This document shows, piece by piece, positions 42,116 to 59,603 of a stretch of 64,000 bases of DNA. Within the stretch, counting starts at the first letter, position 1, and the number at the start of each line of letters is the position of its first letter. The translations under genes were made by a program, and so were the position numbers. This DNA comes from an archaeon (GTDB lineage Archaea; Nanobdellota; Nanobdellia; Pacearchaeales; GW2011-AR1), in contig JABHSE010000002.1 of NCBI GenBank assembly GCA_018697035.1, positions 1 to 64,000 of the forward strand, in the 5' to 3' direction. The notes beneath the pieces were generated by a model. That model ran no database searches, had not been told where the DNA came from, and saw only the letters and a program-made list of their open reading frames with translations.

Positions 42116-42150
42116 TCTAAAATTATAAACCTAACCAACCAATTGGAAGT

Positions 42151-42233
42151 CTCAATAGATTAAGACGAGACGCAGGGTTGCGAAGTGTGCAGACGCACAT
42201 GAGTGTTCCTGCAACGAAGTATTAAGCATTGAG
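42151..42233. repeat. Stop-codon-embracing structured element, copy A
   Basis: ctcaat...gcaggGTTGCGAAGTGTGCagacGCACATGAGTGTTcctgcaacgaag...attgag. Confidence 0.8.
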
Positions 42234-43184
42234 AGTTTCAATTAAAGCCTCAACATCTACTTTTTCGACGCTATTCGCCACAATCTCCAAATTATTAAAC
42301 AGCTGATTCCTATTAACTCGTCCACTCAAATAAATTTCAGTCCCAAGCAAATCATCTCGAAATGCGGCAGCCTTCACCTCATCACTCAAATCTTCCTCAG
42401 GAATCAACAACTTAATCTGGTCCGAAAACATAACAACCCTTATACTCTCGACTCCATCATCCAAAACAAAATTCAAAATCGCTCGGTCTTTCTTCTCGAC
42501 AACTCCATGCTCCGCACATTTGAAAACGCCATCATCTCCCAACATACCCTTCTTATTACAAGTCGGACAAACCGAATAAAACCTGGGCTGAAAAACCTGT
42601 ACAACAATACCCCTCGCCTTCACACTCATCCCTTGCCGAACCTCATCTAAACCAACTTCACTCGCAGCCGGCGCATTCTTAACCTCCGCCATTTCAACCG
42701 AACTCTTCTTCAATTCTCCAAAACTAGACAAATGAATCTCCGAATCTCTCGTCGACCCATTCTTAATCTCAACAACATCCCCAACCTTAATCAACTCATC
42801 CTCGATCATCGCAATATGATTCGTATCCCACAAAACAACACGTGTACTTCCACTATCGTCCGCCAAAATAAAATTCGCAACCTTCCCCTTCCGATCATTC
42901 TTCTCAAACTCACGAACAGGAAAAATATTCATAATCTTCCCCACAACATTAACCTTCCGAAGACCTCCAATCAACTCCGCAACCTTCAAATCTTCATCTT
43001 CAAAACTAATTCCAAGTTCAGCCGAAATAATCTGCGCAGCTCCCTCTTTAGAAATCAACCCCGACAACTTCGCCTTCTTCGCCTCAATCTTCCTCTCAAC
43101 CTCAGCCCGCTCCAAACCAGAAGCCTTTGCAATCCGATCAACCAACAACTCATAATTCTTCATACCCAAAAAAACCAACTTCAC
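42222..43184 (-). CDS. Replication factor A / OB-fold ssDNA-binding protein
   Basis: GLRKVNVVGKIMNIFPVREFEKNDRKGKVANFILADDSGSTRVVLWD; Zn finger CPTCNKKGMLGDDGVFKCAEHG. Confidence 0.88.
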   Translation of the reverse strand: MKLVFLGMKNYELLVDRIAKASGLERAEVERKIEAKKAKLSGLISKEGAAQIISAELGISFEDEDLKVAELIGGLRKVNVVGKIMNIFPVREFEKNDRKGKVANFILADDSGSTRVVLWDTNHIAMIEDELIKVGDVVEIKNGSTRDSEIHLSSFGELKKSSVEMAEVKNAPAASEVGLDEVRQGMSVKARGIVVQVFQPRFYSVCPTCNKKGMLGDDGVFKCAEHGVVEKKDRAILNFVLDDGVESIRVVMFSDQIKLLIPEEDLSDEVKAAAFRDDLLGTEIYLSGRVNRNQLFNNLEIVANSVEKVDVEALIETLNA

Positions 43185-43227
43185 TATTTAAGTATTATTG
43201 AGATACACTACATCCATGATTTGATAA

Positions 43228-43668
43228 TTAATCAAAATCATCTATCAAACTTGTAAGAAGACTATCAGCCCTCTCGATATCTTCATTGGTAGTTAGGCGA
43301 TCTATGATACCAGAATCGTCATAATATACCATAAACTTTTCAAAGAGTTCCTTGGATTTTGCACTAGCATAACCATCAAGAATAACACACTCGGTATCTG
43401 CTATCACCCCCTGAAACCAATTATTCCTCACCTTATGTCTCCCAGTATCAGTATTACTATGTAAAATCACTACAGGAATTTCGTTACTACATTCATCTCT
43501 AAGAAATTTCAGATGCCCTAAATATTCTGTACCGTCCATATCTTCAGAAATTCCATTCAATTTATAAAACTTCTCAAAACCCAAAATTTCCACAGGAAAG
43601 CGTGGCGTCGAAGATGCTACGATTTCCTGTGGAATATTATTACACCGGTACATCAGATTGCAACACAA
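43228..43668 (-). CDS. Hypothetical protein; 5' part overlaps hairpin H3
   Basis: ORF; PVVILHSNTDTGRHKVRNNWFQGVIADTECVILDGYAS. Confidence 0.45.
   Translation of the reverse strand: MCCNLMYRCNNIPQEIVASSTPRFPVEILGFEKFYKLNGISEDMDGTEYLGHLKFLRDECSNEIPVVILHSNTDTGRHKVRNNWFQGVIADTECVILDGYASAKSKELFEKFMVYYDDSGIIDRLTTNEDIERADSLLTSLIDDFD
43589..43633. repeat. TCCA hairpin repeat, copy H3
   Basis: tccacaggaaagcgtggcgtcgaagatgctacgatttcctgtgga. Confidence 0.85.
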
Positions 43669-43768
43669 AACTTACGCTCCACCAGGAGTGCCTACTGGGT
43701 GAACCAACATAGATTAATTATAAAACTTAATCAGTAAGTTTTATAAACCAAAATCAAGACATCTAAAT

Positions 43769-43915
43769 ATGAAATGCTCAAGCTGCGACAAAGAAACGAC
43801 AAAAATCGTAAAATTCCCATGCCCAAAATGCAATAACGAAATCCTAAGATGCGACAAATGCAGAACCCTATCAATCGAATATAAATGTCCAAAGTGTCAA
43901 CACCAAGGACCTTAG
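43769..43915 (+). CDS. Small zinc-ribbon protein
   Basis: MKCSSCDKETTKIVKFPCPKCNNEILRCDKCRTLSIEYKCPKCQHQGP*; directly upstream of aEF1-beta. Confidence 0.8.
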   Translation: MKCSSCDKETTKIVKFPCPKCNNEILRCDKCRTLSIEYKCPKCQHQGP

Positions 43916-43924
43916 ATATAACAA

Positions 43925-44200
43925 ATGGCAACAGCAGGAATACAATTTAAAATAATGCCCGAAGGCGTAGAAACAGACTTAGAGCAACTCAAAACAACAA
44001 TAAAGAAAACAATAGAATCTTTCGAATCAGGAGTCTTCAATGAAGCAAAAGAGGAACCAATAGCATTCGGACTAAAGGCACTAATCATAACAATCGCACT
44101 TTCCGAAGACGAAGAATCCGATGCAGTAGAAACCGCCCTCTCAAAAATCCCAGAAATATCCTCTGTAGAACTTATCGACTATCGAAGAGTAGTGGGATAA
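43925..44200 (+). CDS. Elongation factor 1-beta
   Basis: FKIMPEGVETDLEQLKTTIKK...IAFGLKALIITIALSEDE...VELIDYRRVVG. Confidence 0.9.
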   Translation: MATAGIQFKIMPEGVETDLEQLKTTIKKTIESFESGVFNEAKEEPIAFGLKALIITIALSEDEESDAVETALSKIPEISSVELIDYRRVVG

Positions 44201-44264
44201 ACATTACAAAATATCATCTAATTAACGAAACATTTTTAAACTACTAAGGAGTAACAGATATATT

Positions 44265-44444
44265 ATGGAAGATAAATATAAAAAAAGTCCAGAAGCACAA
44301 TCGCACTGTGACAAAATAAAGAAAAAACTAGAAACACCAAAACCAGATTACGTCGGGATATTGGTAAATGAAATAGAGAATGCTTATGACCAAAAAATTA
44401 TAGCATATATAAAAGACAAAAATTTATCCGACTTAGAAAAATAA
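44265..44444 (+). CDS. Hypothetical 59-aa protein
   Basis: MEDKYKKSPEAQSHCDKIKKKLETPKPDYVGILVNEIENAYDQKIIAYIKDKNLSDLEK*. Confidence 0.45.
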   Translation: MEDKYKKSPEAQSHCDKIKKKLETPKPDYVGILVNEIENAYDQKIIAYIKDKNLSDLEK

Positions 44445-44495
44445 TTACTCAGGACTCTTCAAAAAACTTATAACCTCTCTTAACTTATATCTAAC

Positions 44496-45086
44496 ATGCC
44501 AATCACAACAGAAGAAGCCTCCAAAATAAAAGAACAACTTCTAACCCAACTAGACAACTTCCCAGAGGAGAAACGTTCTCAGATTACCGAACAGATCAAC
44601 TCAATGACAGGCGAACAAGTCGAAGCCTTCGTTAAACAAAACAACCTAACTCACCTAGGCGGACAATGCATCTTCTGCTCAATCGTAGCAAACAAAACCC
44701 CATCCTACAAAATCGCCGAAGACAAGAACTACATCGCAATCCTAGAACTTAATCCTCTAAGCAAAGGCCATTCCCTAATTATACCAAAAGAACATCTCGA
44801 AAAAGTCCCAGAATCAGCAGATGCCCTAACACAAGAAATCGCAAGAAAACTAAAAAACAAATTCAATCCTGAGGATGTCAAAATCAACGAACTAAAAATC
44901 ATGGACCACGCTCTCTTAGAAGTCGTCCCAATATATGGAAACGAAACAGAGAGACATCAGGCATCAGAAGAAGAATTAAAATCACTTCAGGAAGAAATAT
45001 TAAAAGCTCAAGAAATAAAAATGCCCGAAAAACCACAAGAAGTCAAAACAGAAGAAATCCCAATTCTACCCCCAAGAATTCCCTAA
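44496..45086 (+). CDS. HIT-like protein, catalytic motif apparently degenerate
   Basis: CIFCSIVANKTPSYKIAEDKNYIAILELNPLSKGHSLIIPKEH; HxHxH replaced by DHALLEVVP. Confidence 0.75.
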   Translation: MPITTEEASKIKEQLLTQLDNFPEEKRSQITEQINSMTGEQVEAFVKQNNLTHLGGQCIFCSIVANKTPSYKIAEDKNYIAILELNPLSKGHSLIIPKEHLEKVPESADALTQEIARKLKNKFNPEDVKINELKIMDHALLEVVPIYGNETERHQASEEELKSLQEEILKAQEIKMPEKPQEVKTEEIPILPPRIP

Positions 45087-45470
45087 TTAATTTTTCGACT
45101 TAGCCAAAAAACTCTCGTTCATCAAATATCCCAACGTAACACCTACAGCGTCCCATGCCAACTCATCTACCTGAAAACTACCTCGACTCATACACTGACT
45201 AGCCTCATAATAGGCCGAAGCACCAAGGTACAAGCCAAACTTATTAACGGTCAAATACTCATATTTTTCTGCAATATAATCCATTCCCTTTCCTAATAAA
45301 AAAGGCATAGCAATCCCCGCCAACAAATGATCCAAACTACCCTGAAGACTAGCAATTACAGGAATCTGTTCCCTTATCCCATCGACAAAAGAACTATGGT
45401 TAGCCAAAACAGCAAGTCCAGCACCGCCAATAACAACTCGCTCCTTATCTACATTCTCCATATTAAACAA
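45087..45470 (-). CDS. Hypothetical protein
   Basis: ORF 127 aa. Confidence 0.5.
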   Translation of the reverse strand: MFNMENVDKERVVIGGAGLAVLANHSSFVDGIREQIPVIASLQGSLDHLLAGIAMPFLLGKGMDYIAEKYEYLTVNKFGLYLGASAYYEASQCMSRGSFQVDELAWDAVGVTLGYLMNESFLAKSKN

Positions 45471-45491
45471 GAAAAAAACCTACTTATAAAA

Positions 45492-46310
45492 TCATGCAAT
45501 AACCAAAATACCTACAAACCAATCCCTCAAGAGAGCATACCCCATAAACGCAATCAAAAACGCCGGAACAAACGGCAAACCTTCCTTAATCAAAACCTTC
45601 CTCCGCCCCTTCAACAACTCAATATCTTCCAAACTCAAACCATCCCAATCCGCCTCGACAACTCGCCCACCAACCCGAACATCATCAACCAACCAATCCC
45701 CTTCCCGCAACTCGCTCCCAGAAACCTCTCGAATCATCGAAACATTCTCCAACCCCTTAGCAAAAACATAAAGCAAAGGAAAAATAAAAACCAACAACCC
45801 AACTAAAAAGAACAAAAAATCAACAAATCCGAACAACATCAAAACAATACCAACACCAACAATCCACAACTTATCTTGCACCAACTTCTTCATCTCCAGA
45901 TTAACCTTCTCACGATTTTGAAACCACAGGACTCCGGAATAAACCAATCCATAAACAGAACCACTAATCATCAAAAACAAAAGAAACACTCCAATATTAA
46001 TCATCGAACCCAGAAAAGTAGAAGCAAGAAAAAAGGCAGTCATAGCAAATAACAACTTAGCATCTCCCCCAGCAAAAACCCTACCATAATAAAACAAATT
46101 CATAATCAGAAACATCACGGCCAACAAAAACCCAACATGAAAAACAACATTAGAATTCCCAGATAAAATTGCACCATAGAAAACAAAAATCAAACTAGAA
46201 ACAAGTAAAAACAAATTCAACCAATTGTCAACCTCCCTCCTCTTCAGGTCCTGCATACTAGCAACAAGAATTCCAACAAAAAACAACCAAAACAAAAACC
46301 CAAATTCCAT
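45492..46310 (-). CDS. A24 prepilin/preflagellin peptidase
   Basis: VASMQDLKRREVDNWLNLFLL and VFAGGDAKLLFAMTAFF (GxGD-type), multi-TM. Confidence 0.88.
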   Translation of the reverse strand: MEFGFLFWLFFVGILVASMQDLKRREVDNWLNLFLLVSSLIFVFYGAILSGNSNVVFHVGFLLAVMFLIMNLFYYGRVFAGGDAKLLFAMTAFFLASTFLGSMINIGVFLLFLMISGSVYGLVYSGVLWFQNREKVNLEMKKLVQDKLWIVGVGIVLMLFGFVDFLFFLVGLLVFIFPLLYVFAKGLENVSMIREVSGSELREGDWLVDDVRVGGRVVEADWDGLSLEDIELLKGRRKVLIKEGLPFVPAFLIAFMGYALLRDWFVGILVIA

Positions 46311-46311
46311 T

Positions 46312-46503
46312 CTATCTAAAATTCCTCCCGATTAAATTCACAATCAAAATAAACACCGACAAAACTAATCCAATAAGAGCTATAACCATATCCGAAGCAC
46401 TAAAACATGAAGTACTAATAGTATTTAAAAAAATATAAATAAAAATTAAATAATTCACAAAGTTCCCAAGAAAATCCAAAACACCAAATTGCATATTAAA
46501 CAA
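46312..46503 (-). CDS. Small membrane protein
   Basis: ORF 63 aa, hydrophobic. Confidence 0.45.
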   Translation of the reverse strand: MFNMQFGVLDFLGNFVNYLIFIYIFLNTISTSCFSASDMVIALIGLVLSVFILIVNLIGRNFR

Positions 46504-46597
46504 GTGTCCTAATTATTCCGTATCCCAAAACAACAATAGCCACAATACCAGCAAGGACAGCCAAATAATTCAACCACTTCAAAACCTCTTTACTCAT
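46496..46597 (-). CDS. 33-aa single-TM protein
   Basis: MSKEVLKWLNYLAVLAGIVAIVVLGYGIIRTLV*. Confidence 0.45.
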   Translation of the reverse strand: MSKEVLKWLNYLAVLAGIVAIVVLGYGIIRTLV

Positions 46598-46621
46598 AAT
46601 GTAAACACAACTCTATTTTAT

Positions 46622-46822
46622 TTAAAACTTCCTCTTCTTCCCTTTTCCGTAACCTTTCTTCTTCTTGACAACGACCTTCCCCATTTTATCCACCTTACTC
46701 TCGCTCTCCTCATTAACCTCAGATGACCGGAACTTCCCACCCCGCTTATACCCCCGAACCAATCGCTTCTTCTTTAAATCCCCCTTCGTCCTTCGCCTAT
46801 CAATCCCTCCGAAATCCATCAA
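46622..46822 (-). CDS. Small basic protein
   Basis: Lys/Arg-rich 66 aa within minus-strand pilus cluster. Confidence 0.45.
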   Translation of the reverse strand: MMDFGGIDRRRTKGDLKKKRLVRGYKRGGKFRSSEVNEESESKVDKMGKVVVKKKKGYGKGKKRKF

Positions 46823-47355
46823 ATCCTCTCCACCGTAAATTTACTCCCCACCTTCTTAATCAAATACTCAGCAGAAAAATTAAAGGCAAAGTCAATCGGA
46901 AAATTCACCTCGGTCAAATCCAAAGCTCTCAACTCAAAACTCTTCCCAACCTCATTTCTCTTCAAAATAATATCTCCAGAATCCTCTTGAACAGTATACA
47001 AAATATTATCCAAAAAAGAAACCTCATCAAATTCTCCCCTCTTCATTTCCTTTCCATCTCTAGTCAAATTGGAAAAAATAAAATCCTTCATCTTATCATT
47101 AAAGCCCGAAACAAGTGCCGCCTTAAACGCAAGCTCATCAATCCCACTACTCTCCACACTCTTCAATACAAGCTCCTTCTCCCTCATCTCAAAAATATCC
47201 AAATTATCCCGAACATCCAAAACAACCAAAGGAGAAACCAAAGAACTCTGAACCCTTTCTTGTTGAACCGAATAAACCATAATAGAAAGACCGCACATCA
47301 ACAAAGTTATCAAAACCAAAATCGCCGAAAAAAGCTGCCCACGTTTATTTCTCAT
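46819..47355 (-). CDS. Type IV pilin-like protein
   Basis: MRNKRGQLFSAILVLITLLMCGLSIMVYS class III signal. Confidence 0.7.
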   Translation of the reverse strand: MRNKRGQLFSAILVLITLLMCGLSIMVYSVQQERVQSSLVSPLVVLDVRDNLDIFEMREKELVLKSVESSGIDELAFKAALVSGFNDKMKDFIFSNLTRDGKEMKRGEFDEVSFLDNILYTVQEDSGDIILKRNEVGKSFELRALDLTEVNFPIDFAFNFSAEYLIKKVGSKFTVERI

Positions 47356-47650
47356 ACTTCACCATCCTTAACGAATCCTCAACACCCAAATCACTAGCAA
47401 CCAAAAACTTAACCTCACTAAGATTAACATACCGACCCGAATAACTAAACACATTATCAATCTCCGCCATACTCTCATTATAAATCGCAACATCCGAACT
47501 AACCTTATTCAACTTCTTAACAACCCCAGCGCCAACAACAAAAACAATCAAAATCAATGCAATCAAAATCGTAGCGCCGAAAAAAGCAATAAAACTAGAA
47601 AGAAGCCCTCTCTTCCCAAACCCTCGCCTCTCAATCTTACTCATCTGCAT
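47345..47650 (-). CDS. Type IV pilin-like protein
   Basis: RRGFGKRGLLSSFIAFFGATILIALILIVFVVG. Confidence 0.7.
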   Translation of the reverse strand: MQMSKIERRGFGKRGLLSSFIAFFGATILIALILIVFVVGAGVVKKLNKVSSDVAIYNESMAEIDNVFSYSGRYVNLSEVKFLVASDLGVEDSLRMVKYEK

Positions 47651-48149
47651 AATTCACCAACACCTCCAATTTCATCTTACCATCAAACCTCCCACTACTA
47701 TCCAAAACCACAACAGAATAATTCGCCTTATAATATCCAGGCTCATATTCTCCAAGACCTTCGGTTCCAGCCAAAGCATTCCCGGTCGCAACAACCTTCC
47801 CATATAAATCCTTCAACCACAGAGACCCACTATCTCCTTCGCTAAAACTCGCAATCTCCCTCCCCCTCACATCGACAACATCCACACCAACATAAGCTCT
47901 ATCAATATCAACAATCCCGCAACCCTGAATCATATTATCAACATCCCTTCTCAAATCCAAAACCCCATCTCCAGCCAAACAATCAACAACACCACGAGCC
48001 AAAATATGCGCCTCGGCATCTCGAACATCAATATAATAACCATACACAAACGACCCAGCTCCAAAAACAATAAACGCGATAACCGTCACCATAAACAAAC
48101 GATACATCATATTAATTCCCTCCGCCATCATTCCCCTCTTTTCCATCAC
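47637..48149 (-). CDS. Type IV pilin-like protein
   Basis: MMEKRGMMAEGINMMYRLFMVTVIAFIVFGAGSFVYGY. Confidence 0.7.
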   Translation of the reverse strand: MMEKRGMMAEGINMMYRLFMVTVIAFIVFGAGSFVYGYYIDVRDAEAHILARGVVDCLAGDGVLDLRRDVDNMIQGCGIVDIDRAYVGVDVVDVRGREIASFSEGDSGSLWLKDLYGKVVATGNALAGTEGLGEYEPGYYKANYSVVVLDSSGRFDGKMKLEVLVNYADE

Positions 48150-48517
48150 TTCACCGTCACCAAAAATTTATCCCCAACCTCTTCAACTTCTACCGAATAT
48201 CTAGAAAAATAAGGATACCCCCCAACAGACCGGAGCCCATCCACGCTAACAAAAACCCTCCCATCATCAATATCAACATCATCAATAACCCCATTAATAT
48301 TACCCTTCCAAACCTCAAAACTCATCCCAGCCTCGGCAGAGTCAATCAACAAAGCCAACTGCTTCTCTAAAACCTGCTGCATAACATTCCGCCCATTAAC
48401 CCTCTCCGCAGACGCAAACAAAAAAACAGCCAGAATCAAAGCAATCAAAATAACATGAACCACAAACTCATTCATAACAGAACCCCTCTTGTCCATCATC
48501 CTGGAATTCCTTCCCAT
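48146..48517 (-). CDS. Type IV pilin-like protein
   Basis: MMDKRGSVMNEFVVHVILIALILAVFLFASAE. Confidence 0.7.
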   Translation of the reverse strand: MGRNSRMMDKRGSVMNEFVVHVILIALILAVFLFASAERVNGRNVMQQVLEKQLALLIDSAEAGMSFEVWKGNINGVIDDVDIDDGRVFVSVDGLRSVGGYPYFSRYSVEVEEVGDKFLVTVK

Positions 48518-49431
48518 GTCTCACACATATTCGCATTCTTCCACAGCATACCATCAAACAATTTATTACCAATCTCCTCAAATGGGGAACCCACATCGGT
48601 CTGAAAATAAAACAAATAGGGAATATAGTCTCCAATATCACTTTTTTCAGCAGAAGTAATAATCCCATAACCAATCAGCAAATCTCCTTTTGAAGAATCA
48701 AACATCATCGGCAAATCCACACGACTAACATCTAGCGGAGACCAAACATTTTTAATTTTCTCCAATCCCCTGTTCTCAGTACCCCCAGTCAATCTATTCA
48801 AAAGCACAGCGTTTTTATAATCAGAAATATCCACCTTAAAATTATCTCCACTAAGATTAAACTCTCTAGCTGAAGCCGGATTAAACGCAGGAAATTTCTC
48901 CCCCGCATTTTTCAAATATGTTCGATAACTAAATCCCTTATTCATTTGCAAATCCAAACTATCCCGAATATTAATCTCAACACTATTTTGATTCATATAT
49001 TCCTTAGCCTCGTTGGTTAAGTGAATCCTGGCACATGGCACACAGGTAGAAGCAACGCTATAAAAATCTGAAGGAAAGGCACTAGCATCACCTTTATCAT
49101 AAAGAGCCCAACATTCCACAATATTCTCCGCGATAATTTTCTCCGCCCGCTCAATATCCCTCACATCACTCTCATCAATCTCCACAACATGCGTCTTACA
49201 TTTTAGGGGATACTCACTCTTAAAAGATTTAAGATTAAAACCCATATATTTACTCTCAGGCAACAGATTCCTCAACTGAATACTCTGCCTACAAATCTGC
49301 CTAGCCTCCTCATCCCCAGTCCACAACTCATTAAAAATAAAATACAAACTCAAACTCAAAACCATCAACCCCAAAATCAACGACAACATAATTCCCCACT
49401 TATAATCACCTTTCTTATTCATACCAAACAA
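48496..49431 (-). CDS. Type IV pilin-like protein
   Basis: MNKKGDYKWGIMLSLILGLMVLSLSLYFIFNELW. Confidence 0.7.
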   Translation of the reverse strand: MFGMNKKGDYKWGIMLSLILGLMVLSLSLYFIFNELWTGDEEARQICRQSIQLRNLLPESKYMGFNLKSFKSEYPLKCKTHVVEIDESDVRDIERAEKIIAENIVECWALYDKGDASAFPSDFYSVASTCVPCARIHLTNEAKEYMNQNSVEINIRDSLDLQMNKGFSYRTYLKNAGEKFPAFNPASAREFNLSGDNFKVDISDYKNAVLLNRLTGGTENRGLEKIKNVWSPLDVSRVDLPMMFDSSKGDLLIGYGIITSAEKSDIGDYIPYLFYFQTDVGSPFEEIGNKLFDGMLWKNANMCETWEGIPG

Positions 49432-49452
49432 TACAAACCTAACTTAATAAAA

Positions 49453-49590
49453 CTAACTTATAGCTTTCAAAACAATCTTCCAAATAGCCCAACTCACCAA
49501 CACCAAAATCCCAATAGACCCAATCCATCTAACAGTCTCATTCGCAAAAACCGCTCCCGCCTTATTCTTCCTATTAACTACTAAACGCAT
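49453..49590 (-). CDS. 45-aa pilin-like membrane protein
   Basis: MRLVVNRKNKAGAVFANETVRWIGSIGILVLVSWAIWKIVLKAIS*; not in ORF track. Confidence 0.5.
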   Translation of the reverse strand: MRLVVNRKNKAGAVFANETVRWIGSIGILVLVSWAIWKIVLKAIS

Positions 49591-50107
49591 AATTCGCAAC
49601 CTCCTTCTCTAGTTTAACTTTCCGACCCTCTCCAGCGGTCCAAGTCCCTCCTCCTTGCTGACTAACATCATTATAAAAAAAGCTAACCGGCAAATCCATA
49701 CCCCGACAATACTTACAAACCACACTCTTCCCAGACTCAGAACAAACACAGAGAACATTCTCCTTCGAATCTAATTTACGAGTAAATATTTTATCATTTC
49801 TTTTAAAACTAGCCAAATTCCCAAAATAAGCCAAATAAAAATTCATATCATCTCTCCCATTATCCAACATAAAAAAACTAGCACTCCCCAATCCATCAAC
49901 CTCATCGACAGATCTCTCAAGCATATCGAAATAAGACTTCGCCGTCTCATCCCCCTCATCAAAAACAGGAGAAAACAGGTTAACCAAAAGCCACGCCATC
50001 GCAGCGAAAACAACAACCGCCAAAATCACCTTCACAATCTCCTCATCCATCACCCCACCCTTTTTCCCTATCCCCGCAACCCCACAAAACGCATCCATCA
50101 AAAACAA
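49574..50107 (-). CDS. Type IV pilin-like protein
   Basis: GKKGGVMDEEIVKVILAVVVFAAMAWLLVNLFS. Confidence 0.65.
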   Translation of the reverse strand: MFLMDAFCGVAGIGKKGGVMDEEIVKVILAVVVFAAMAWLLVNLFSPVFDEGDETAKSYFDMLERSVDEVDGLGSASFFMLDNGRDDMNFYLAYFGNLASFKRNDKIFTRKLDSKENVLCVCSESGKSVVCKYCRGMDLPVSFFYNDVSQQGGGTWTAGEGRKVKLEKEVANYAFSS

Positions 50108-50126
50108 CCTCCAAACCTAACAGTCT

Positions 50127-50234: not shown

Positions 50235-51731
50235 TCATCGACATTTCCCCTTCAAAAATTTACCAACCAAATTTCCAAAATAAATCCCGTTAAAATCACT
50301 TTTCTGCAACCGATAAATTTCCTCGTCTCCAACCTTCTTCCACTTAGCCCCATCTCTCTCAACAAGATAAGCCGGAAAATACCTCAGATCACCACGCTCC
50401 AACAAATTACTCTCAACCTTCCCAAACGCCGTAAACTTCAAACCAAAAACCTCTCCATCAGAGGCAGTAAAAACAACAACAGGAAAATAATCAGTATCTT
50501 CAAAACTAGTCACAAAATTTTTGCCATCCACAACCACAATCTTACCATCTCTAGCCTTCTTCAAATTTTCAATATGAACTTCAGAAGCTTTTTTCGCATC
50601 TTCAGTCAATCTAGTTTTAATCTTCGCAAACTCATTCTTTAAATTATTAACCTCAGCCTCACTATCAAGTTCATCATAGGAACTCCCAATCCATTCATTA
50701 TTCCCAACCAAACTTCCTATCTCTTGCATATTATTAAGACCGGCACTGTCAATAACCTCAAACCCAATCTTATCTCCATGACAACAACAAGTTCCTCCCA
50801 TTTTTTCTGTCCCTCTACATTCGGAAAAAGAATCAACTTTCGCCGGGCTATAACTAGATTCCTCATCAAACCCGCTACAAATAGCATTACAAAGCTTCCC
50901 TTCTTTTAATCCGGACTCAATCGCAATCTTTTCCCTATCTACTCGAACAATCTCATCAACCTTCACAACAGAATCATCACTCCAAAAAACCTTATCATCA
51001 TTCCCAGTAAAACTAGAAAGAGAACTTCCAACCTTACGCCAAAGTCCATCATCTTTCTTGGCTCGCTTATACCAAACCAAATCAACAAACGCATCAATGG
51101 CATCTTCATCCTTATCAAAAAATTTAGCGTCTTCCTTGTTCATCTGCACAACCCACTCACCATTCTGCCAAACCGCCGTAACATTCTCATCGGTCCAACC
51201 GCTTCCATCCCCAAACAAAACAAACCGCTTAGTAAAGGCACTATTGTAAACCTCCTTACCATTAAGTGTCTCCAAGAACCCAACCGAAGCATTATACCTC
51301 TCCCAATTCTCCTTCTCGGCAACAACCTTATCCAAAAGAACAGAATCAGCACTCCTCCAACTCCCGCCTTCCAACCTATCTATCTTCCCATTCACCAACC
51401 TATAATCCCCAACCCCACCAATACTAATATTGCAAACCCCATCACGACACACATTAAAACTAGCCCTCTTTTTGTCCCAATTCAAAATTTCCAAAAACTC
51501 CTTCCCTCCTCCCAGATCCAAAATCTCAGTCTCATAACATCCACTATACAAATCACTCTTAAACCCAAACAAAATCTTAACCTCATCAAACTGCGCACCG
51601 ACACTATCAATCAACGGATTCAATCCCCCAACCGTAGCCCCCCAAGCAACCAAAACCAAAACAACAATCAACAAAATAATATTAACCAACTTCCCAACTG
51701 TCCAATTAACTGCACCTTTCTTATGTTCCAT
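50235..51731 (-). CDS. Type IV pilin-like secreted protein
   Basis: MEHKKGAVNWTVGKLVNIILLIVVLVLVAWGATVGG; start trimmed. Confidence 0.7.
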   Translation of the reverse strand: MEHKKGAVNWTVGKLVNIILLIVVLVLVAWGATVGGLNPLIDSVGAQFDEVKILFGFKSDLYSGCYETEILDLGGGKEFLEILNWDKKRASFNVCRDGVCNISIGGVGDYRLVNGKIDRLEGGSWRSADSVLLDKVVAEKENWERYNASVGFLETLNGKEVYNSAFTKRFVLFGDGSGWTDENVTAVWQNGEWVVQMNKEDAKFFDKDEDAIDAFVDLVWYKRAKKDDGLWRKVGSSLSSFTGNDDKVFWSDDSVVKVDEIVRVDREKIAIESGLKEGKLCNAICSGFDEESSYSPAKVDSFSECRGTEKMGGTCCCHGDKIGFEVIDSAGLNNMQEIGSLVGNNEWIGSSYDELDSEAEVNNLKNEFAKIKTRLTEDAKKASEVHIENLKKARDGKIVVVDGKNFVTSFEDTDYFPVVVFTASDGEVFGLKFTAFGKVESNLLERGDLRYFPAYLVERDGAKWKKVGDEEIYRLQKSDFNGIYFGNLVGKFLKGKCR

Positions 51732-51761
51732 ATCCAACCTCAGAAAAACAATTACAACCTT

Positions 51762-51807
51762 TCCACAGGAAATTGTGCGTGTCGAAGACACCATAATTTT
51801 TTATGGA
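51762..51807. repeat. TCCA hairpin repeat, copy H5
   Basis: tccacaggaaattgtgcgtgtcgaagacaccataattttttatgga; followed by heptamer tract 51811-51840. Confidence 0.87.
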
Positions 51808-51857
51808 ATACTTCAAACTCCAAACTCCCAACTCCCAACCATGAAAATCTTCGATTT

Positions 51858-51995
51858 TCATCTCCCAAACCTCAAAGCACTCTTGATCCCCTCAATCAAA
51901 CCCCCGCCCTTATCACTAAACATAATAAACGCTCCAACCATAATAACCAAAACAATTACAAAAATCAGAATCTTAACAATCTCCTCCATTTCCAT
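51858..51995 (-). CDS. 45-aa pilin-like membrane protein
   Basis: MEMEEIVKILIFVIVLVIMVGAFIMFSDKGGGLIEGIKSALRFGR*; not in ORF track. Confidence 0.5.
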   Translation of the reverse strand: MEMEEIVKILIFVIVLVIMVGAFIMFSDKGGGLIEGIKSALRFGR

Positions 51996-52082
51996 CAATA
52001 CAAAACAAAAAACAAATTAATAAACATTCCTAAAACCCAAAAAATAAAAAAATAAAAAAAGAGGGATAACCCTCAAAAAAAA

Positions 52083-52406
52083 TTAACAAGTAATACTACA
52101 TTTGTCTACATAACCTTTAGTCGCAAAACTCGTACAATTACCGGCTTCCTTTGCAGCATCGGCAGAAACAACTATAGTCCTACTTTGATTACAAAAACCA
52201 TACTGGTTATCCTGCTGACAAGCCAAAGTACAAGCAGTGCTCATAGTATCGACATTAACGTCACCACCACCAAGGCCAGTAACTTTCTCCCACAAACTTC
52301 CCCATCCAGTGCTAAACCCATAGATCAAGAATACAAGAACAACCAATCCCAAGACTATCGCAATAATAGTCCCAAGCGTCATCTGCTGCCCTTTTTTATT
52401 TTCCAT
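52083..52406 (-). CDS. Cys-rich type IV pilin-like protein (candidate major pilin)
   Basis: MENKKGQQMTLGTIIAIVLGLVVLVFLIYGFSTGWG, six Cys in C-terminal part. Confidence 0.7.
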   Translation of the reverse strand: MENKKGQQMTLGTIIAIVLGLVVLVFLIYGFSTGWGSLWEKVTGLGGGDVNVDTMSTACTLACQQDNQYGFCNQSRTIVVSADAAKEAGNCTSFATKGYVDKCSITC

Positions 52407-52520
52407 TTATCTCACCTCCCTTACAATTATTCATAATAAGTTAAACCTACCAACATTACACATATTATAAAACTTCCCAATCACAATAATTCTTATAAAC
52501 GACAATCAATAAAATAAAAT

Positions 52521-52856
52521 ATGGAGAAAATAGCCACAGACAAGTTCCAAGGAACAAGAGAACAGTTTTATCTCAAAGATAAAACATGCACACAAGTACA
52601 ACTCCCACTATCAATAACAAAAGAAGACCACGAAAAATTCAGCATACTAGAATTAAAAGTAGATAACCACCCAATAGGACCTCTTTTCCAAGGAACAAAA
52701 GAAACCCCCGCCTCAACCGCAGTAAATTATCAAACAATTTCTCAACTATACGAATCATTTCAAGGCTCAGAAATAAAACAAATGAGAGACGAACTTACCT
52801 CCGCATCACAAGAAATATTCGACTACGCCCACAAAACATATCTAAAAGATAACTAA
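52521..52856 (+). CDS. Hypothetical protein
   Basis: ORF 111 aa. Confidence 0.5.
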   Translation: MEKIATDKFQGTREQFYLKDKTCTQVQLPLSITKEDHEKFSILELKVDNHPIGPLFQGTKETPASTAVNYQTISQLYESFQGSEIKQMRDELTSASQEIFDYAHKTYLKDN

Positions 52857-52891
52857 GACATTCTCCAATTTTTCATGAAAAACCAAAGCCT

Positions 52892-52996
52892 CTAACTTAA
52901 TTTCTAGCAGGCTCAGGCAAGGCGGCAGGTTGCGAAGTGTGCAAGCGCACATGAGCGTTCTGCCAACGAAGCATCAGCCGCTAGAAATTAAGTTAG
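52892..52996. repeat. Stop-codon-embracing structured element, copy B
   Basis: 17-bp perfect terminal stem ctaacttaatttctagc/gctagaaattaagttag; core ggcagGTTGCGAAGTGTGCaagcGCACATGAGCGTTctgccaacgaag. Confidence 0.85.
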
Positions 52997-55150
52997 TCCA
53001 GCTAAAGCGATTGCTCCGACTAAAGTCAATCCAATAATCGCCCCAGCCGCAACAACCAAATACAAAATCATCGAAACCTTCAAATTCTTCCCGACTTCAG
53101 CCGTCATCTGCAACGGATCCCTACCACTCTTCAGCGTCACAAGAGTCTGCGTCAAAATAAACACAACCTGAATCAAATAAATCCCAACAACAATCTGCAA
53201 CCAATAAGTCGGAATCATCTTCGTAACATCAAAAATCCCCAAGATACTACTAAACTGAGACCCAGTCATATCACCATTAGCAAACATCTCACTTAACGCC
53301 GAAAGAATAGTCGTAATCATACCAGCCAACCCAACAATAATACCCGACAAAAGCGGCGCCAGAAAAGTCATATTCGACTTCATATCAGAAATAATCTCCG
53401 CCAACAAATCATTCAACCTATCATTAATCTTCTTAATATTTTTAACATAATCACTAATCGACATCAAACTCCGAGCCGCAACCTTCAGCCCCTTCTTCAC
53501 CGACTCAACCAGAATCCTCATACTAGTCGCAACCAACTGCGACGGATAAAAAACAACAGCCCCTCTCTTCGGATCAAACAACGCCCTCTCCAAACTCATA
53601 CCCAGCTGCCCGATATTATCATTAACAATCCTAAAAAAACCTTCAGTCGCAGTCCCTCTAACACTCGACGAAACCTTAGCGAAAGCAATCTCAGCAGGCG
53701 ACCCGTCCCCTATCCTATTTCCCAACTGAAACAGCGAAGACACAAACTCCTTTTCAACTTCCTTATATTTATTCCTCGTCTCCAAAATCTCTTTAGTCCT
53801 TGCCTTAGCACCAACAATAAACACCGTAGCAATAGCAGCAGGAATACATAAACTCAAAAGCAAAGCACCAGAACCAAACGGGCCAGACAAATTCCCAGAA
53901 GCATCAGTCAAAATACCAAACACACCTCCACCCCCCAAGAACCCAATCCCAAGATCAGACCAAGCATAATCCCGAGTCGTATTAAGCCAAAGCGGCACAT
54001 TAGTATACCTCCACAAAAACGGAATAATCCCCAAGATAAACAATGGCAAAGCAAAAAGAACTCCCTTCCAATACCCAGCATTACTCTTATATTTCTCATA
54101 CAACGGATTCTGCTCCAACAACTCCGACTCCCCATAACCACCAGGCCTCTTCATCATAACGCTCTCCGTCAACGCAATCACCATAAACGGCACCAACACA
54201 TTAAAAATCAAAAGCACATGATACCACTGAATAGCACCCCCCAGCATCGTAGAAGCCAAAGGCAAAATAGCCAAAGCCAGCGTCGGCAAAACAATCCCCA
54301 ACATATAAACATTAGTCAAAGGAGCCTTCGCATCATGCGTATACTTAAGCATCTTGTCATAAACCCCATCCAAAATAACCTGCAAACTCTTCTCCAAAGT
54401 TGCAACCCTCCGTGCCTCCTCAGGCTCGTACAAACTCGATTCAATCAAATGAAACGCCTCAACAAACTCCAAACTATAATCCTTCCAAGTCAACAAATAA
54501 TTATCAACCGAATCCTTAATCGTAGAAAACTTCCCAACCTCGACGTCCCAAAACACCTTCCGAAAATCCAACGAGAGCGGCGCCCTCAAATGCTCCGAAG
54601 CAAAAGCAACCGCCTTCTCAAAATTAGAAGTATGCTTCATATAAATAACAATATACAAAATCGCGGGAACCATCTCAGCCGAAGCCTTCAGTCGCCAACG
54701 AACCGCCAACCTCTCCGGAGTCTTCGAAGAATAAAAGAACAAAAAGATAGCTAACAAAAAAACCAGAAACAAAAACATTGCAGAAAAAGCCCCGGTCAAC
54801 AACCAAATACCAGCGATAGAAGCAATACCACCAAACAGCGTCAAAAACAAAAGCATCGTAGAGAAGACAACAACCTCTGAAGCACTAACATTCAAATGCG
54901 CAATCTCAATCGCCCGGTTAATTCTAATCTTATCTTTCTCCCCAACCTTAATACTAAAAACATTCCCCATCGACTTACACCATCTCTCATACCGCGAAAA
55001 CTCAGGCATCATAGAATCCTTAAACGCCTCATAACTCTTAGAAAATCCCGACTTCTGATCTACAGCCTCAGGCTTCTGAGAATTAAACCCCTTCATCTGC
55101 TTCTCTATCTTCGAACCATACTTATTCAAAATATCATCAGTACTAGTCAT
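52988..55150 (-). CDS. Type IV pilus/archaellum assembly membrane protein (TadC/FlaJ/PilC-like)
   Basis: Two T2SF-like helical domains, multiple TM segments, adjacent pilus ATPase. Confidence 0.85.
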   Translation of the reverse strand: MTSTDDILNKYGSKIEKQMKGFNSQKPEAVDQKSGFSKSYEAFKDSMMPEFSRYERWCKSMGNVFSIKVGEKDKIRINRAIEIAHLNVSASEVVVFSTMLLFLTLFGGIASIAGIWLLTGAFSAMFLFLVFLLAIFLFFYSSKTPERLAVRWRLKASAEMVPAILYIVIYMKHTSNFEKAVAFASEHLRAPLSLDFRKVFWDVEVGKFSTIKDSVDNYLLTWKDYSLEFVEAFHLIESSLYEPEEARRVATLEKSLQVILDGVYDKMLKYTHDAKAPLTNVYMLGIVLPTLALAILPLASTMLGGAIQWYHVLLIFNVLVPFMVIALTESVMMKRPGGYGESELLEQNPLYEKYKSNAGYWKGVLFALPLFILGIIPFLWRYTNVPLWLNTTRDYAWSDLGIGFLGGGGVFGILTDASGNLSGPFGSGALLLSLCIPAAIATVFIVGAKARTKEILETRNKYKEVEKEFVSSLFQLGNRIGDGSPAEIAFAKVSSSVRGTATEGFFRIVNDNIGQLGMSLERALFDPKRGAVVFYPSQLVATSMRILVESVKKGLKVAARSLMSISDYVKNIKKINDRLNDLLAEIISDMKSNMTFLAPLLSGIIVGLAGMITTILSALSEMFANGDMTGSQFSSILGIFDVTKMIPTYWLQIVVGIYLIQVVFILTQTLVTLKSGRDPLQMTAEVGKNLKVSMILYLVVAAGAIIGLTLVGAIALAGLT

Positions 55151-55173
55151 ATTCTAAAAGCGCCCTCCAAGTG

Positions 55174-55219
55174 TCCATAAGAAATCATGTGAGTCGAAGA
55201 CTCCATGGTTTTTTGTGGA
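55174..55219. repeat. TCCA hairpin repeat, copy H6
   Basis: tccataagaaatcatgtgagtcgaagactccatggttttttgtgga. Confidence 0.87.
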
Positions 55220-55239
55220 AAATTCCAAATCAATCAATC

Positions 55240-55521
55240 TCATTTTTTCTTCACCTTCATTTTCTCCCTCCGCAAAAAATCAGCAACAGCAATATCAACA
55301 AACTGCTTCCGATTCACGTATCTAAATTTATTCTCATCCAAATTAATAAACTCTTCGACATCCATCAACAACTCACTATTAATCTTAACAGCCGAATCCC
55401 GAGCCTTCCTCACAGTCTTCTTCTTCCTTGGAAAAATCGCCCGAACCGAAATATGATCAATCGACCCATCTTTCAAACTAATATCATCAAAATCCAATTT
55501 CGCACCTTTCGCCTTTACCAT
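55240..55521 (-). CDS. Small basic, possibly ribbon-helix-helix-type protein
   Basis: AVKINSELLMDVEEFINLDENKFRYVNRKQFVDIAVADFLRREK. Confidence 0.55.
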   Translation of the reverse strand: MVKAKGAKLDFDDISLKDGSIDHISVRAIFPRKKKTVRKARDSAVKINSELLMDVEEFINLDENKFRYVNRKQFVDIAVADFLRREKMKVKKK

Positions 55522-55588
55522 ATTAAGTTACAATAAGTAACCAAAAGTAACTATATAAATTATCCCAAAACCGAAAATCAAAATATAC

Positions 55589-55634
55589 TCCATAAGAAAT
55601 TATGCGTGTCGAAGACACCATTATTTTTTATGGA
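55589..55634. repeat. TCCA hairpin repeat, copy H7
   Basis: tccataagaaattatgcgtgtcgaagacaccattattttttatgga. Confidence 0.87.
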
Positions 55635-55643
55635 ACTAAAACT

Positions 55644-55928
55644 CTAATCCTTAAGCCTATTAAAATCCGCAGCAGTAGCAGGCTTACCAGAACCCAAAGA
55701 ACCGCACGCCAATTCATAAGCACACTCTAAATAAACCAACCCCTCATTAACTCCCCTATCCGCAACAACATCAGCAGGAAAATAATCTCCTAATCCCGCA
55801 ACCATATCCAATGCCCTAATCTTCTCACCATCATCCACAACTCCAACATTCTTATAAAAATCCCCTAATGAAACATCCTTCAGCCTCTTAACATCAGCAC
55901 CAGCCAAATAATCCATATCCAAACTCAT
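55644..55928 (-). CDS. Hypothetical protein
   Basis: ORF 94 aa. Confidence 0.5.
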   Translation of the reverse strand: MSLDMDYLAGADVKRLKDVSLGDFYKNVGVVDDGEKIRALDMVAGLGDYFPADVVADRGVNEGLVYLECAYELACGSLGSGKPATAADFNRLKD

Positions 55929-55989
55929 ACAACTCCAAGCACTCTACCCTTTATAAAAATTATTACACTTTACTCTATATCAAAACTCC

Positions 55990-56033
55990 TCCATGAGAAA
56001 TGCGCGGCCAAAAGCTGTGCAATTTTTTATGAA
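55990..56033. repeat. TCCA hairpin repeat, copy H8 (most diverged)
   Basis: tccatgagaaatgcgcggccaaaagctgtgcaattttttatgaa. Confidence 0.8.
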
Positions 56034-56046
56034 ATAACTCTAACAA

Positions 56047-58332
56047 TCAAACCACTAACTTCTTGCTCTCCAACTCTAACCACCGCTTCCACTTCCCAAA
56101 AACAACATCACCCTTAGGCAACCCAACATCCTCAACAACCTCATTCGAAATCTGATGAAACGCATTATTAGACATAACCGTAAACTCCCCTTCCAAAATC
56201 TCCGGCAAATTCTCCCGTTCAGCAAAATCTACAGTCTCCTGCTTAATCTTTGCCCGAAGCATAACATTATCCCAAACCGCATCCCAATCCCCAGCCCAAC
56301 CCTTAACATTCGAAGCAATATCCTTCATAATCTCAGAGTCCCCATTAATCAAATCATCCGTCGGCTCCAACTTATCGCTCTCGACATTATACTTCATCAA
56401 ATCAACAAAACCACCTTCCCGCAAAGGGTCCTTCTCCCAATGCTTCCGAACCTCACTAACCGACAAAACCCTTCTCCAAGAATGCATACCATCAGCAGAC
56501 TTAATTGGATTCGCAACAACAATCAAATCCGTAGCCTTAAAACTCGTAGCCGGAACATCCAAGTCATTAACAACCCTATCAAAAACACCATAAGGAGAAG
56601 CACCATGAATAGTCCCCGCAACAACATTCGCCAAAGCCCCAACCCTCATCGCCTCATACAAAGCCTTAGCCTCTCCACTTCTAATCTCCCCCACAATCAA
56701 AGACGAATCTCCTAAACGCAAAGATGCCCGAATCCCATCCTCAGCCGAAACTTCCGCAGACTCACCACCCAAAGCCGACCGAACCTTCATCGACAAAATA
56801 TCATAATCCAATTTCCTCATAGCAGAAACCGGCAACTCCAAAGTATCCTCAACCGTAATAATCCTCTTATCAGGCATAATCTCCAACAACAACGCGCCAA
56901 GTAAAGACGTCTTCCCAGAAGACCGAGTTCCCGCAACAAGCATCGTCCGCGCACCATCAATCATAAAACTCAGCAAACCCGCAGTCATAGAATCAATCAT
57001 CCCATTCTTAATAAACAAAGGCAAAGTCCAAGGCTTACTCCTATGCCTCCTCAAAGTATAGGCAAGACCTCCAGCAGACAAAGGCTGCTGAATAATCGCA
57101 ACCCTCGCACTAATCTTTCCCAACTCCAAATTCGTATCTAATATAGGGTTAGCTTCGTCAAGTGCCCGACCCGACGTCATCCTAAACTTAGCAGCCCAAG
57201 AATCCGCATCCTCCATAGAAGGAACCAAGTTGGTCACACACTCCCCAAATTCATTATGCCGAACAAAAATATTCGATAACGAAACAGGCGCATTAACCAT
57301 AATATCCTGCAAGTCCTCATCCTCGAGCAACACCTCCAAAACCCCAAACCCAATCGTATGCCTAACCAAAATATTCGCCAACTTCTTCAAATCACTATAA
57401 CTCAAAACAACATTCTTATTCCCAGCCAAATCACTAATCAAGTCCCGAGCAACATTAAAAAAAACCTGCCTCGTCCTCTCAGGATCAGTAAATTCCTCAG
57501 CAGTCGGACGATGCTCAATTAAAACATTCCGAGCAAGATTCAACAACATATGATGATCCTCATCCAACAAATACTCAGGCGGCGACAAATGATAAACCAA
57601 CTTCGCCTTATTCGGCCTACGAAAAATAGTCACCAAACTCTCGCTACTCCCCTTCGCAACCTTATACTGCTTCACAATCTCCGCATCCTCAGGCAACCGT
57701 GCAACCATTCGAGTAAACGTAAAATTCGGCATAATATCCGCCCGAAAAACCTCATTGTAAATCCCCCTATCTCCCGAAACATAAGAATCGAAATTATCCT
57801 TAACTCTTCGAATCAATTCCAAATTATTAAAATAACCAATCACCTTCTCCAAAAGACGAATATACTCCAAAGCATCCGCGCCACCCTTAGCCTTCTTACT
57901 AAACAACTCGCCCCTCAACTCACGATAAGCCCGAACAGGATCCATAGGCAAAACCTCATTAATCACATAATTAAAAAAAGAATATGCCTCCTGATAAAAC
58001 AAACCCAAATGCGCCAACTTATCTTCAGAAACAATCCTCTCTTGCTTAATCAAAAAATCAATCAAATTAGCAACCTCAACCAACATCTTAATCTGCGAAA
58101 AATCATGCGCATAATTTCTCTGCTGAACAAAAACAACTCTAGAAATATTCGACTCCTCTCTCAAATTCCCAATCGTCGCAGCCATCACCTGGCCCGAATC
58201 AACAAGCGACGGTACAACATCCGCACCAAGATAATTAACATACATCACATTCTCACCACTCTCTCTCACAACCTCGTAAGAATAAAGCGGCGCACCATCC
58301 TTAAACATCATACAACACGAAAAACAAAACAA
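56047..58332 (-). CDS. Type IV pilus/archaellum-type secretion ATPase (PilT/VirB11-like)
   Basis: VAGTRSSGKTSLLGALLLEIMPDKRIITVEDTLELP, SSLIVGEIRSGEAKALYEAMRVGA. Confidence 0.9.
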   Translation of the reverse strand: MFCFSCCMMFKDGAPLYSYEVVRESGENVMYVNYLGADVVPSLVDSGQVMAATIGNLREESNISRVVFVQQRNYAHDFSQIKMLVEVANLIDFLIKQERIVSEDKLAHLGLFYQEAYSFFNYVINEVLPMDPVRAYRELRGELFSKKAKGGADALEYIRLLEKVIGYFNNLELIRRVKDNFDSYVSGDRGIYNEVFRADIMPNFTFTRMVARLPEDAEIVKQYKVAKGSSESLVTIFRRPNKAKLVYHLSPPEYLLDEDHHMLLNLARNVLIEHRPTAEEFTDPERTRQVFFNVARDLISDLAGNKNVVLSYSDLKKLANILVRHTIGFGVLEVLLEDEDLQDIMVNAPVSLSNIFVRHNEFGECVTNLVPSMEDADSWAAKFRMTSGRALDEANPILDTNLELGKISARVAIIQQPLSAGGLAYTLRRHRSKPWTLPLFIKNGMIDSMTAGLLSFMIDGARTMLVAGTRSSGKTSLLGALLLEIMPDKRIITVEDTLELPVSAMRKLDYDILSMKVRSALGGESAEVSAEDGIRASLRLGDSSLIVGEIRSGEAKALYEAMRVGALANVVAGTIHGASPYGVFDRVVNDLDVPATSFKATDLIVVANPIKSADGMHSWRRVLSVSEVRKHWEKDPLREGGFVDLMKYNVESDKLEPTDDLINGDSEIMKDIASNVKGWAGDWDAVWDNVMLRAKIKQETVDFAERENLPEILEGEFTVMSNNAFHQISNEVVEDVGLPKGDVVFGKWKRWLELESKKLVV

Positions 58333-58386
58333 TATTAAAACATATCTATACTAAACAATTATAAAGTTATTCCACTAACCACAAAC

Positions 58387-58776
58387 ATGGAACCGCCACA
58401 GCCCCAAGAAAACCAAATCAAATCACTTCTCTCCGATTTCAACACAAGACTCCGAGACCTAGACGAACGAAATAAGCTAATCAGAGAAAGGGTCCTACTT
58501 CTCGGAAAAAATTTAATATCCTCACGCCAAGACATAGAAGATGAATTAAAAGAAATAAAAAAGAACAACCAGGAGATAAAGCAGGACCTCGAAAAAATAA
58601 AAAGAACATCGAACTTATTGTTAACCGAATTCAATAAATTCGTAAAAAGGGAGGAGCTCGCCCTCGTAGAAAGAATGCTAAAAGACTTCCAACCACTAGA
58701 ATTCATGCGAAAAAAGGACGTCGAAGAACTAATCGAAAATAAAATAAATATAAAAACCACGAAAACCACATCTTAA
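58387..58776 (+). CDS. Coiled-coil protein
   Basis: Heptad-rich 129 aa, adjacent to pilus ATPase. Confidence 0.55.
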   Translation: MEPPQPQENQIKSLLSDFNTRLRDLDERNKLIRERVLLLGKNLISSRQDIEDELKEIKKNNQEIKQDLEKIKRTSNLLLTEFNKFVKREELALVERMLKDFQPLEFMRKKDVEELIENKINIKTTKTTS

Positions 58777-58777
58777 C

Positions 58778-59488
58778 ATGGCAACACTAGACAGAGTAGT
58801 AGAAATGCAACAGCAAAATAAAACCGACATAGAAATAACGGCACAGCTCCAAAATGAAGGAATAGCACCTGCAGAAATCGACGACGCAATAAACCAAGCT
58901 CAAATCAAAAACGCAGTCTCACCTCCAACTCAAACCCCACCACAAGAAATGCAACCATCGATAACGGCACAACAGCCAGCAGCACCAGAGGTATATCCTC
59001 CTCAAGCTCAAGCTCCACAACCAGAAGCACTACCACAAGAACCAGAGCCGCAACAACCTCAACAACCAGAACAAGAACAACCGCAAATGCAACAACCTCA
59101 ACAACCGCAAGAATACTACCAACCAACACCCCAAGCATACCAAGATCAAAATTACTACGAACCACAAGGCTCTCTCGACTCAGAAACAATATCAGAAATA
59201 GCGGAACAAGTCGCAACCGAAAAACTAGAAGACTACAAATCAAAAGTCGGAGACATTGCTTCTTTCAAAAACCAAATGCAAAACCAGGTGAACGATATCG
59301 ATGATAGACTAAAGAGAATAGAAAGCTCAATCCAACAACTACAAAACGCAATCCTAGGAAAGATAGGCGAATACGGAGAAAACTACGCAATGGTTCACAA
59401 GGACCTAGATAACCTACACGGAACCGTCGCAAAATTAATGAACCCACTAATAGATAACGTCAACGAAATGAAAAAAGTTTCTAAATAA
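58778..59488 (+). CDS. P/Q-rich linker coiled-coil protein
   Basis: PQPEALPQEPEPQQPQQPEQEQPQMQQPQQPQEYYQPT followed by coiled coil. Confidence 0.6.
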   Translation: MATLDRVVEMQQQNKTDIEITAQLQNEGIAPAEIDDAINQAQIKNAVSPPTQTPPQEMQPSITAQQPAAPEVYPPQAQAPQPEALPQEPEPQQPQQPEQEQPQMQQPQQPQEYYQPTPQAYQDQNYYEPQGSLDSETISEIAEQVATEKLEDYKSKVGDIASFKNQMQNQVNDIDDRLKRIESSIQQLQNAILGKIGEYGENYAMVHKDLDNLHGTVAKLMNPLIDNVNEMKKVSK

Positions 59489-59500
59489 TATCCACCAAAC

Positions 59501-59603
59501 AATTTTAATTTATAGCAGATTTAGACGAGGCGCAAGGTTACGAAGCGTACAAGCGTACGTGAGTGTTCTTGCAACAAAGTATGAATCGCTAAAAATCAAA
59601 ATT
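59501..59603. repeat. Stop-codon-embracing structured element, copy C
   Basis: Core gcaagGTTACGAAGCGTACaagcGTACGTGAGTGTTcttgcaacaaag with AT-rich terminal stem. Confidence 0.82.

Follow-up and report, generated by a model that had tools for sequence, protein, structure and literature searches.

Three sequences on the plus strand of an archaeal contig share a set of letters and a predicted structure, and each lies at the end of a gene that is read from the minus strand. The question raised by this locus is what kind of element they represent and how it came to sit at gene ends. The window studied here is a stretch of 64,000 nucleotides (contig C4:1-64000) of G000, an 809-kb Pacearchaeota genome. 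The original prediction for this stretch left a choice between a mobile 3′-UTR element and a bidirectional terminator or non-coding RNA.

ERIC repeats have been known for 35 years and used in bacterial typing since 1991, and De Gregorio is said to have reported in 2005 that stop-overlapping ERICs prefer one orientation. ERICs are mobile, end in TA and undergo co-transcription, and in Yersinia they destabilise upstream transcripts in an orientation- and ribosome-dependent manner (PMC2229807; PMC10969869). Some short dispersed palindromes carry stops in several frames or have effects at the RNA level (PMC2229807).

In this study, we concluded that the three sequences probably belong to an ERIC-like repeat family, whose copies are short non-autonomous palindromes with a conserved, strand-asymmetric hairpin core; these would have entered gene 3′ ends in one orientation and then been kept. 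The fold, the copy number, the placement at gene ends, the strand bias, the filled and empty sites and the gammaproteobacterial relatives connecting to ERIC were all observed.

Structure and extent of the element

The letters shared by the three copies were found where the original prediction had placed them, and the ends it had drawn were too short; the corrected bounds are given in Table 1. The fold was derived from an alignment of the three window copies and nine more from the same genome, nearly ungapped across 107 nt. It consists of four helices: P1, an AT-rich base of 16 bp; P2, of 6 + 2 bp; P3, of 5 + 2 bp; and P4, of 6 bp with a tetraloop. P2 and P3 are joined by a conserved loop, RAGGCG / CAACGAAG, which in copy C flanks P3 as AGGCG / CAAC(G/A), and P3 and P4 are joined by a GAA/GA loop. 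The terminal stem of copy B is indeed a perfect helix of 17 bp (CTAACTTAATTTCTAGC/GCTAGAAATTAAGTTAG).

The three helices proposed to covary proved real, with double changes at 24 of 37 pairs in the 12 nearly ungapped copies. For these copies and pairs the covariation score was 0.432, against 0.194 for shuffled and 0.07-0.13 for slid partners. The pairing is also conserved in additional copies: across 93 distinct ones the score was 0.577, against 0.207 when shuffled and at most 0.14 with slid partners. None of the 4227 Rfam covariance models gave a relevant match at gathering or relaxed thresholds. A kink-turn that might bind L7Ae had also been suggested; this was not supported, because the loop is GAA/GA (GA/GA in ERIC) with a single extra, bulged A, where a kink-turn would have a 3-nt bulge and then tandem sheared G.A pairs.

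Table 1. Positions in the window of the three element copies, the helices of copy C and the host genes.
Feature	Position	Strand	Remarks
Element copy A	42139..42245	+	107 nt, class 1; covariance model R1, 107.8 bits
Element copy B	52891..52997	+	107 nt, class 1, 17-bp perfect P1; covariance model R1, 117.8 bits
Element copy C	59499..59605	+	107 nt, class 1; covariance model R1, 116.3 bits
P1 5′ arm, copy C	59501..59516	+	fold columns 4-19
P1 3′ arm, copy C	59588..59603	+	fold columns 91-106; overlaps TAA stop of minus-strand gene
P2, copy C	5′ arm 59518..59526, 3′ arm 59579-59587	+	covarying
P3, copy C	5′ arm 59532..59536, 3′ arm 59568-59572	+	covarying, 98% paired
P4 hairpin, copy C	59545..59560	+	covarying; closing G-U pair beside GAA/GA internal loop
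Host gene of copy A, replication factor A (RPA)	42222..43184	-	NCBIfam, E 3.6e-39; stop at +21
Host gene of copy B, 720-aa protein	52988..55150	-	without Pfam/NCBIfam match; stop at +7
Host gene of copy C, 159-aa ORF	59602..60081	-	without Pfam match; stop at +1

Copy number and distribution in archaea

Covariance model R1 detected 24 copies in G000 and a 25th was found later, giving about 25. The family also takes in a second structural class, with the loop TTCGCAG...ACCAAGAA. Among the archaeal genomes used, all of them incomplete drafts, copies occur in 19 of the 200 genomes of the order and in 13 of the 16 of the genus; outside the genus but in the same order, two genera have 18 matches each and four have single copies. 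Weaker opposite-strand matches in the order-wide scan were the palindromes of the same copies read backwards. An exact-pattern scan of viral contigs found no element.

Placement at gene 3′ ends

The stop codon of an upstream long ORF lies in or beside P1, between -7 and +22 of the gene-sense element edge, in 90 of 107 archaeal copies, compared with 10 of 107 for the other edge and 4% for random positions. The commonest stop offset is +1 (42 copies), followed by +7 (11 copies). In the gene sense the element starts with TA-ATTTT..., and in most copies its ends read TA(ATTTT...AAAAT)TG. All three window copies follow this rule, with the minus-strand stop codon within or at the edge of P1 as had been described (Table 1). 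The RPA-like call for the host of copy A was confirmed by NCBIfam, and the TadC-like label on the host of copy B found no match in Pfam or NCBIfam. The three hosts had been regarded as unrelated, but their common position is not a matter of chance: the gene-end rule spans nearly every copy, RNA genes too, and the family reaches bacteria.

The hosts are core genes, among them those for RPA, uS7, aEF-2, EF-1alpha, DnaG, TBP and NrdD. Where inspected, the copies beyond these 90 mostly adjoin short ORFs or RNA genes, and one, at L076, is unassigned. Archaeal copies were also found at the 3′ ends of 16S rRNA, tRNA-His, tRNA-Leu, a tRNA with a group I intron and SRP RNA (RF01857, E 2.7e-15, below the gathering score). 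The inclusion of tRNA, rRNA and SRP RNA genes shows that the placement rule is "gene 3′ end" rather than "stop codon".

Some individual loci were recorded in addition. In G011 (L084:1210-1500), the intron-split tRNA (RF00028, 63 bits) with an element copy at its 3′ end was identified by ARAGORN as tRNA-Asn gtt with a 183-nt intron. Two copies, L075:1501-1607 and L118:1475-1622, are exceptions to the gene-end rule; they seem to adjoin an opposite-strand reading frame that is SRP GTPase-like by eye, apparently at an orthologous place in two species. Upstream of the element at L085:7057-9350 and L116, NrdD is seemingly split in two species, with a long ORF fitting the NRDD profile only to position 528 of 562 and a separate short, C-terminal-like ORF (MARTKCEVWSRV...) after it. 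A gene for a 1044-aa protein (G000:C4:82513-85647, start MGFTHLHLHTEYSLLDGATKIGELF), by eye resembling a bacterial-type PHP/DNA polymerase III alpha subunit, carries a copy at its stop codon.

Filled and empty sites

Orthologous sites were seen both filled and empty, with the natural stop intact. At EF-1alpha the element occupies the natural ...KKL-stop position in at least five congeners, and others are without it. Orthologs of the 720-aa gene at copy B end without an element in 11 congeners, and a partial copy was found in G002. No direct-repeat excess indicative of target-site duplication was detected (mean 4.68 vs 4.77 shuffled), with a lone 9-bp duplication, AAACTTTAA, at EF-1alpha of G003. 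Being dispersed, patchy and multi-copy, with filled and empty sites at gene 3′ ends, the family supports the better half of the original prediction, namely a mobile 3′-UTR element. Most likely, the element was mobile and is now partly vertically inherited, and it is most likely co-transcribed within 3′ UTRs.

Gammaproteobacterial relatives and the link to ERIC

A pattern match in Salinisphaera japonica lies in the rRNA spacer between tRNA-Ile and tRNA-Ala, at the 3′ end of tRNA-Ile; it scored 56 bits with the archaeal model R2, with an E-value flattered because the pattern preselected part of the score. In Gammaproteobacteria as a whole, 36 of 369 genomes matched at E<=0.01, where about 4 would be expected, and several had 8-10 copies. 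These copies carry the loops of the archaeal element, and in many of them a stop codon borders the element. A pattern match in a Rhodobacteraceae MAG (L140) had no covariance-model match and was discarded as chance.

A covariance model built from 33 of the bacterial matches, R3, detected 5 of 10 E. coli ERIC loci, correct in both place and strand, with rough E-values of 4.8e-5 to 0.028, and nothing else in 30.6 kb. Model R2 gave no match to the E. coli ERIC loci at E<=10. As judged from these sequence models, the link between the archaeal family and ERIC needs the bacterial intermediates. The ERIC query was a 59-mer, whose sequence was confirmed when it matched in 5395 of 5426 E. coli genomes; in E. 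coli K-12 it located 13 places. The E. coli ERIC folds with a P4 closed by G-U, a GA/GA loop and a GGAAGGC / CAACGCA loop, as in the archaeal element, and the genes iscX, ybhI and ahpC each end with a stop codon at an ERIC edge, on the antisense strand.

When phages, plasmids and E. coli were searched by blastn with the bacterial copies, two plasmid records were the only significant ones, one match being intergenic and the other unannotated. In G519, four copies with pairwise equal scores lie about 60 bases or less from the starts of contigs C90, C99, C265 and C285, as expected of recent identical copies that break assembly. In the gammaproteobacterium G238, two loci (L164, L165) share a repeat longer than 200 bp with the hairpin in its middle.

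Strand asymmetry

Orientation is concordant among all copies of each contig. The strand that folds better runs antisense to the host gene, and it is the C-rich strand in 105 of 107 archaeal copies. In the G000 contigs that carry copies, GC skew was very strong, at +0.39, -0.38 and -0.42, and the fold strand was always the C-rich one. Nearby genes that read along the fold strand have C-rich third positions too (109 of 118), and the skew is therefore a property of the chromosome rather than an effect of the host genes. The G-rich strand is usually the leading strand; if this holds here, the hosts are leading-strand genes. Plain gene orientation was considered as the source of the strand coherence and rejected, with 60-78% of genes on the majority strand versus about 98-100% of elements. 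As a separate observation, contigs C1, C3 and C4 of G000 have an overall skew of about 0.4, which reaches as much as 0.79 at third codon positions and keeps a clean sign within each contig.

The plus strand had been proposed as the structured one, and two measures agree with this. By parsimony on a tree of 108 copies, with counts that rest on one FastTree topology, core pairs showed 68 changes to G-T against 34 to A-C (p = 0.001), and P1 changes were strand-neutral (34:37). In 75 of 88 copies, the RNA of the fold strand had the lower minimum free energy. The core therefore seems to be under selection as one strand, the one that is antisense to the gene upstream.

In the 23 copies whose outer P1 arm is coding sequence, 88% of cells pair with their own downstream arm versus 57% with that of another copy, which shows that the UTR arm and the last codons of the host co-evolve. 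By itself this co-evolution does not separate selection for pairing from DNA palindrome correction, and since P1 has no strand preference, its pairing could be kept by palindrome correction and not by RNA selection.

The G-U preference of the core and the greater stability of the fold-strand RNA would also be expected of a small antisense non-coding RNA gene, or a 3′-end regulatory RNA, transcribed from the fold strand and co-opted in the genus; the site at gene ends would then be functional rather than left over from insertion. The same explanation is favoured by the element having been kept at the orthologous site after EF-1alpha in at least five species. Against it stand the patchy occurrence among species with some orthologous sites filled and others empty, the equal-scoring bacterial copies at contig ends, and the fact that ERIC, which acts like a mobile repeat, has the same fold-strand asymmetry; nor was a common upstream promoter noticed in an unsystematic look. 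We therefore consider an antisense RNA gene unlikely.

Mobility and placement after the stop codon

No candidate for a mobilising enzyme was found, Y1 transposases being absent from all but one of the archaeal genomes richest in copies. The strand-specific hairpin and the near-absolute orientation relative to GC skew would suit a derivative of a single-strand DNA transposon of the REP/RAYT or IS200/IS605 type, moved by a Y1 transposase in replication, and REPs too are known as stop-proximal palindromes. Such a derivative is nevertheless quite improbable: no Y1_Tnp was found in G000, G002, G003, G107 or G162, incomplete MAGs with many copies each, and Y1 transposase presence did not correlate with element copies. 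The element also lacks a GTAG/CGTC tag and has 107 nt, against the 20-40 given in PMC3733652.

Downstream of several copies there are T-rich tracts, and the genes at copies B and C are convergent, both of which would suit a transcription terminator, including the bidirectional one of the original prediction. At EF-1alpha of G010 and G003, that is in at least two species, a native short hairpin and T-run are retained downstream of the element, and the element is therefore an insert between the stop codon and the terminator. Many copies lie between co-directional genes and the element is found inside rRNA operons, so that a terminator is a very poor candidate. Recombination sites like integron attC would share the strand coherence, the folded structure and the position after the stop codon, but are scarcely credible here, as the hosts are core operon genes and RNA genes and not cassettes, the AT-rich P1 ends have no RYYYAAC/GTTRRRY boxes, and conservation is concentrated in the core, which is not the case in attC.

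Discussion

Considering the above results, we favour the ERIC-like mobile repeat and propose a model for its movement and its effect. The mobility step would use one strand as folded single-stranded DNA or RNA and would be coupled to replication; such a one-strand step would explain both the orientation on the C-rich strand only and the antisense fold bias. The strand data suggest that mobility may proceed via one folded strand at the replication fork.

In the host mRNA, the element would lie between the stop codon and the terminator, and P1 would pair the last codons and the stop with the downstream arm. A terminating ribosome would open P1, and the stability of the mRNA 3′ end would then depend on translation. 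This would be a 3′-UTR switch of the kind proposed for stop-overlapping Yersinia ERICs, with a different nuclease; the effect on mRNA stability is inferred. To our knowledge, archaea are generally without the RNase E of the Yersinia model, which counts against the mechanism.

More broadly, and much more tentatively, the archaeal element, its bacterial relatives and ERIC may form one cross-domain family of mobile hairpins, in which one folded strand moves in replication with the help of a mobilising enzyme and lands at the 3′ ends of transcribed genes, and whose presence in DPANN archaea and Gammaproteobacteria reflects spread or persistence.

Through the intermediate bacterial copies, the ERIC puzzle, which concerns both mobility and gene regulation, now reaches a second domain of life. 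Comparison with an archaeal branch that shares the core and is more strictly placed offers a handle on the origin of ERIC, its mobiliser and its position at stop codons. The comparison separates the conserved parts (the GA/GA loop, the AAGGCG/CAACG loop and the fold strand) from the variable ones, and it exposes a replication-strand bias that any model of mobility must explain. The element would also be a widespread 3′-UTR element in core operons of a DPANN lineage.

Comparison with known systems

RUP, Correia/NEMIS, YPAL, RPE and archaeal MITEs resemble the element as short dispersed palindromes. Several of them have terminal TA and a target-site duplication, neither of which was seen here, and we know of no core motif that they have in common with it. 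Integron attC sites are similar in the folded single strand, uniform orientation and location after stop codons, and differ in their R-box ends (RYYYAAC / GTTRRRY), in contrast to an AT-rich P1, and in their cassettes, in contrast to core-gene hosts. REP, BIME and RAYT systems are likewise palindromes near stop codons with strand-specific hairpins; they differ from the element in the GTAG or CGTC tag, in the associated Y1 transposase and in length, at 20-40 bp as stated in PMC3733652.

ERIC (IRU, RU-1) differs from the archaeal element in length (127 vs 107 nt), in the absence of the AT-rich P1, and in duplicating a TA target, a duplication not seen in the archaea. The near-absolute replication-strand orientation of the archaeal copies is a further difference, scored on the archaeal side only. 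The host range of ERIC is Enterobacteriaceae and Vibrionaceae, whereas that of the ERIC-like family is Pacearchaeota and other Gammaproteobacteria. We use the term "ERIC-like", and not ERIC, because TA duplication and direct similarity fail. In other respects the two agree: both are imperfect palindromes of similar size, dispersed, non-coding and multi-copy, with a P4 hairpin closed by a G-U pair beside a GA/GA loop and an AAGGCG / CCAACGCA loop. In both, the preferred fold strand is antisense to the gene whose stop codon the element touches, and one orientation prevails at stop codons. The archaeal family is best described as a new archaeal variant related to ERIC.
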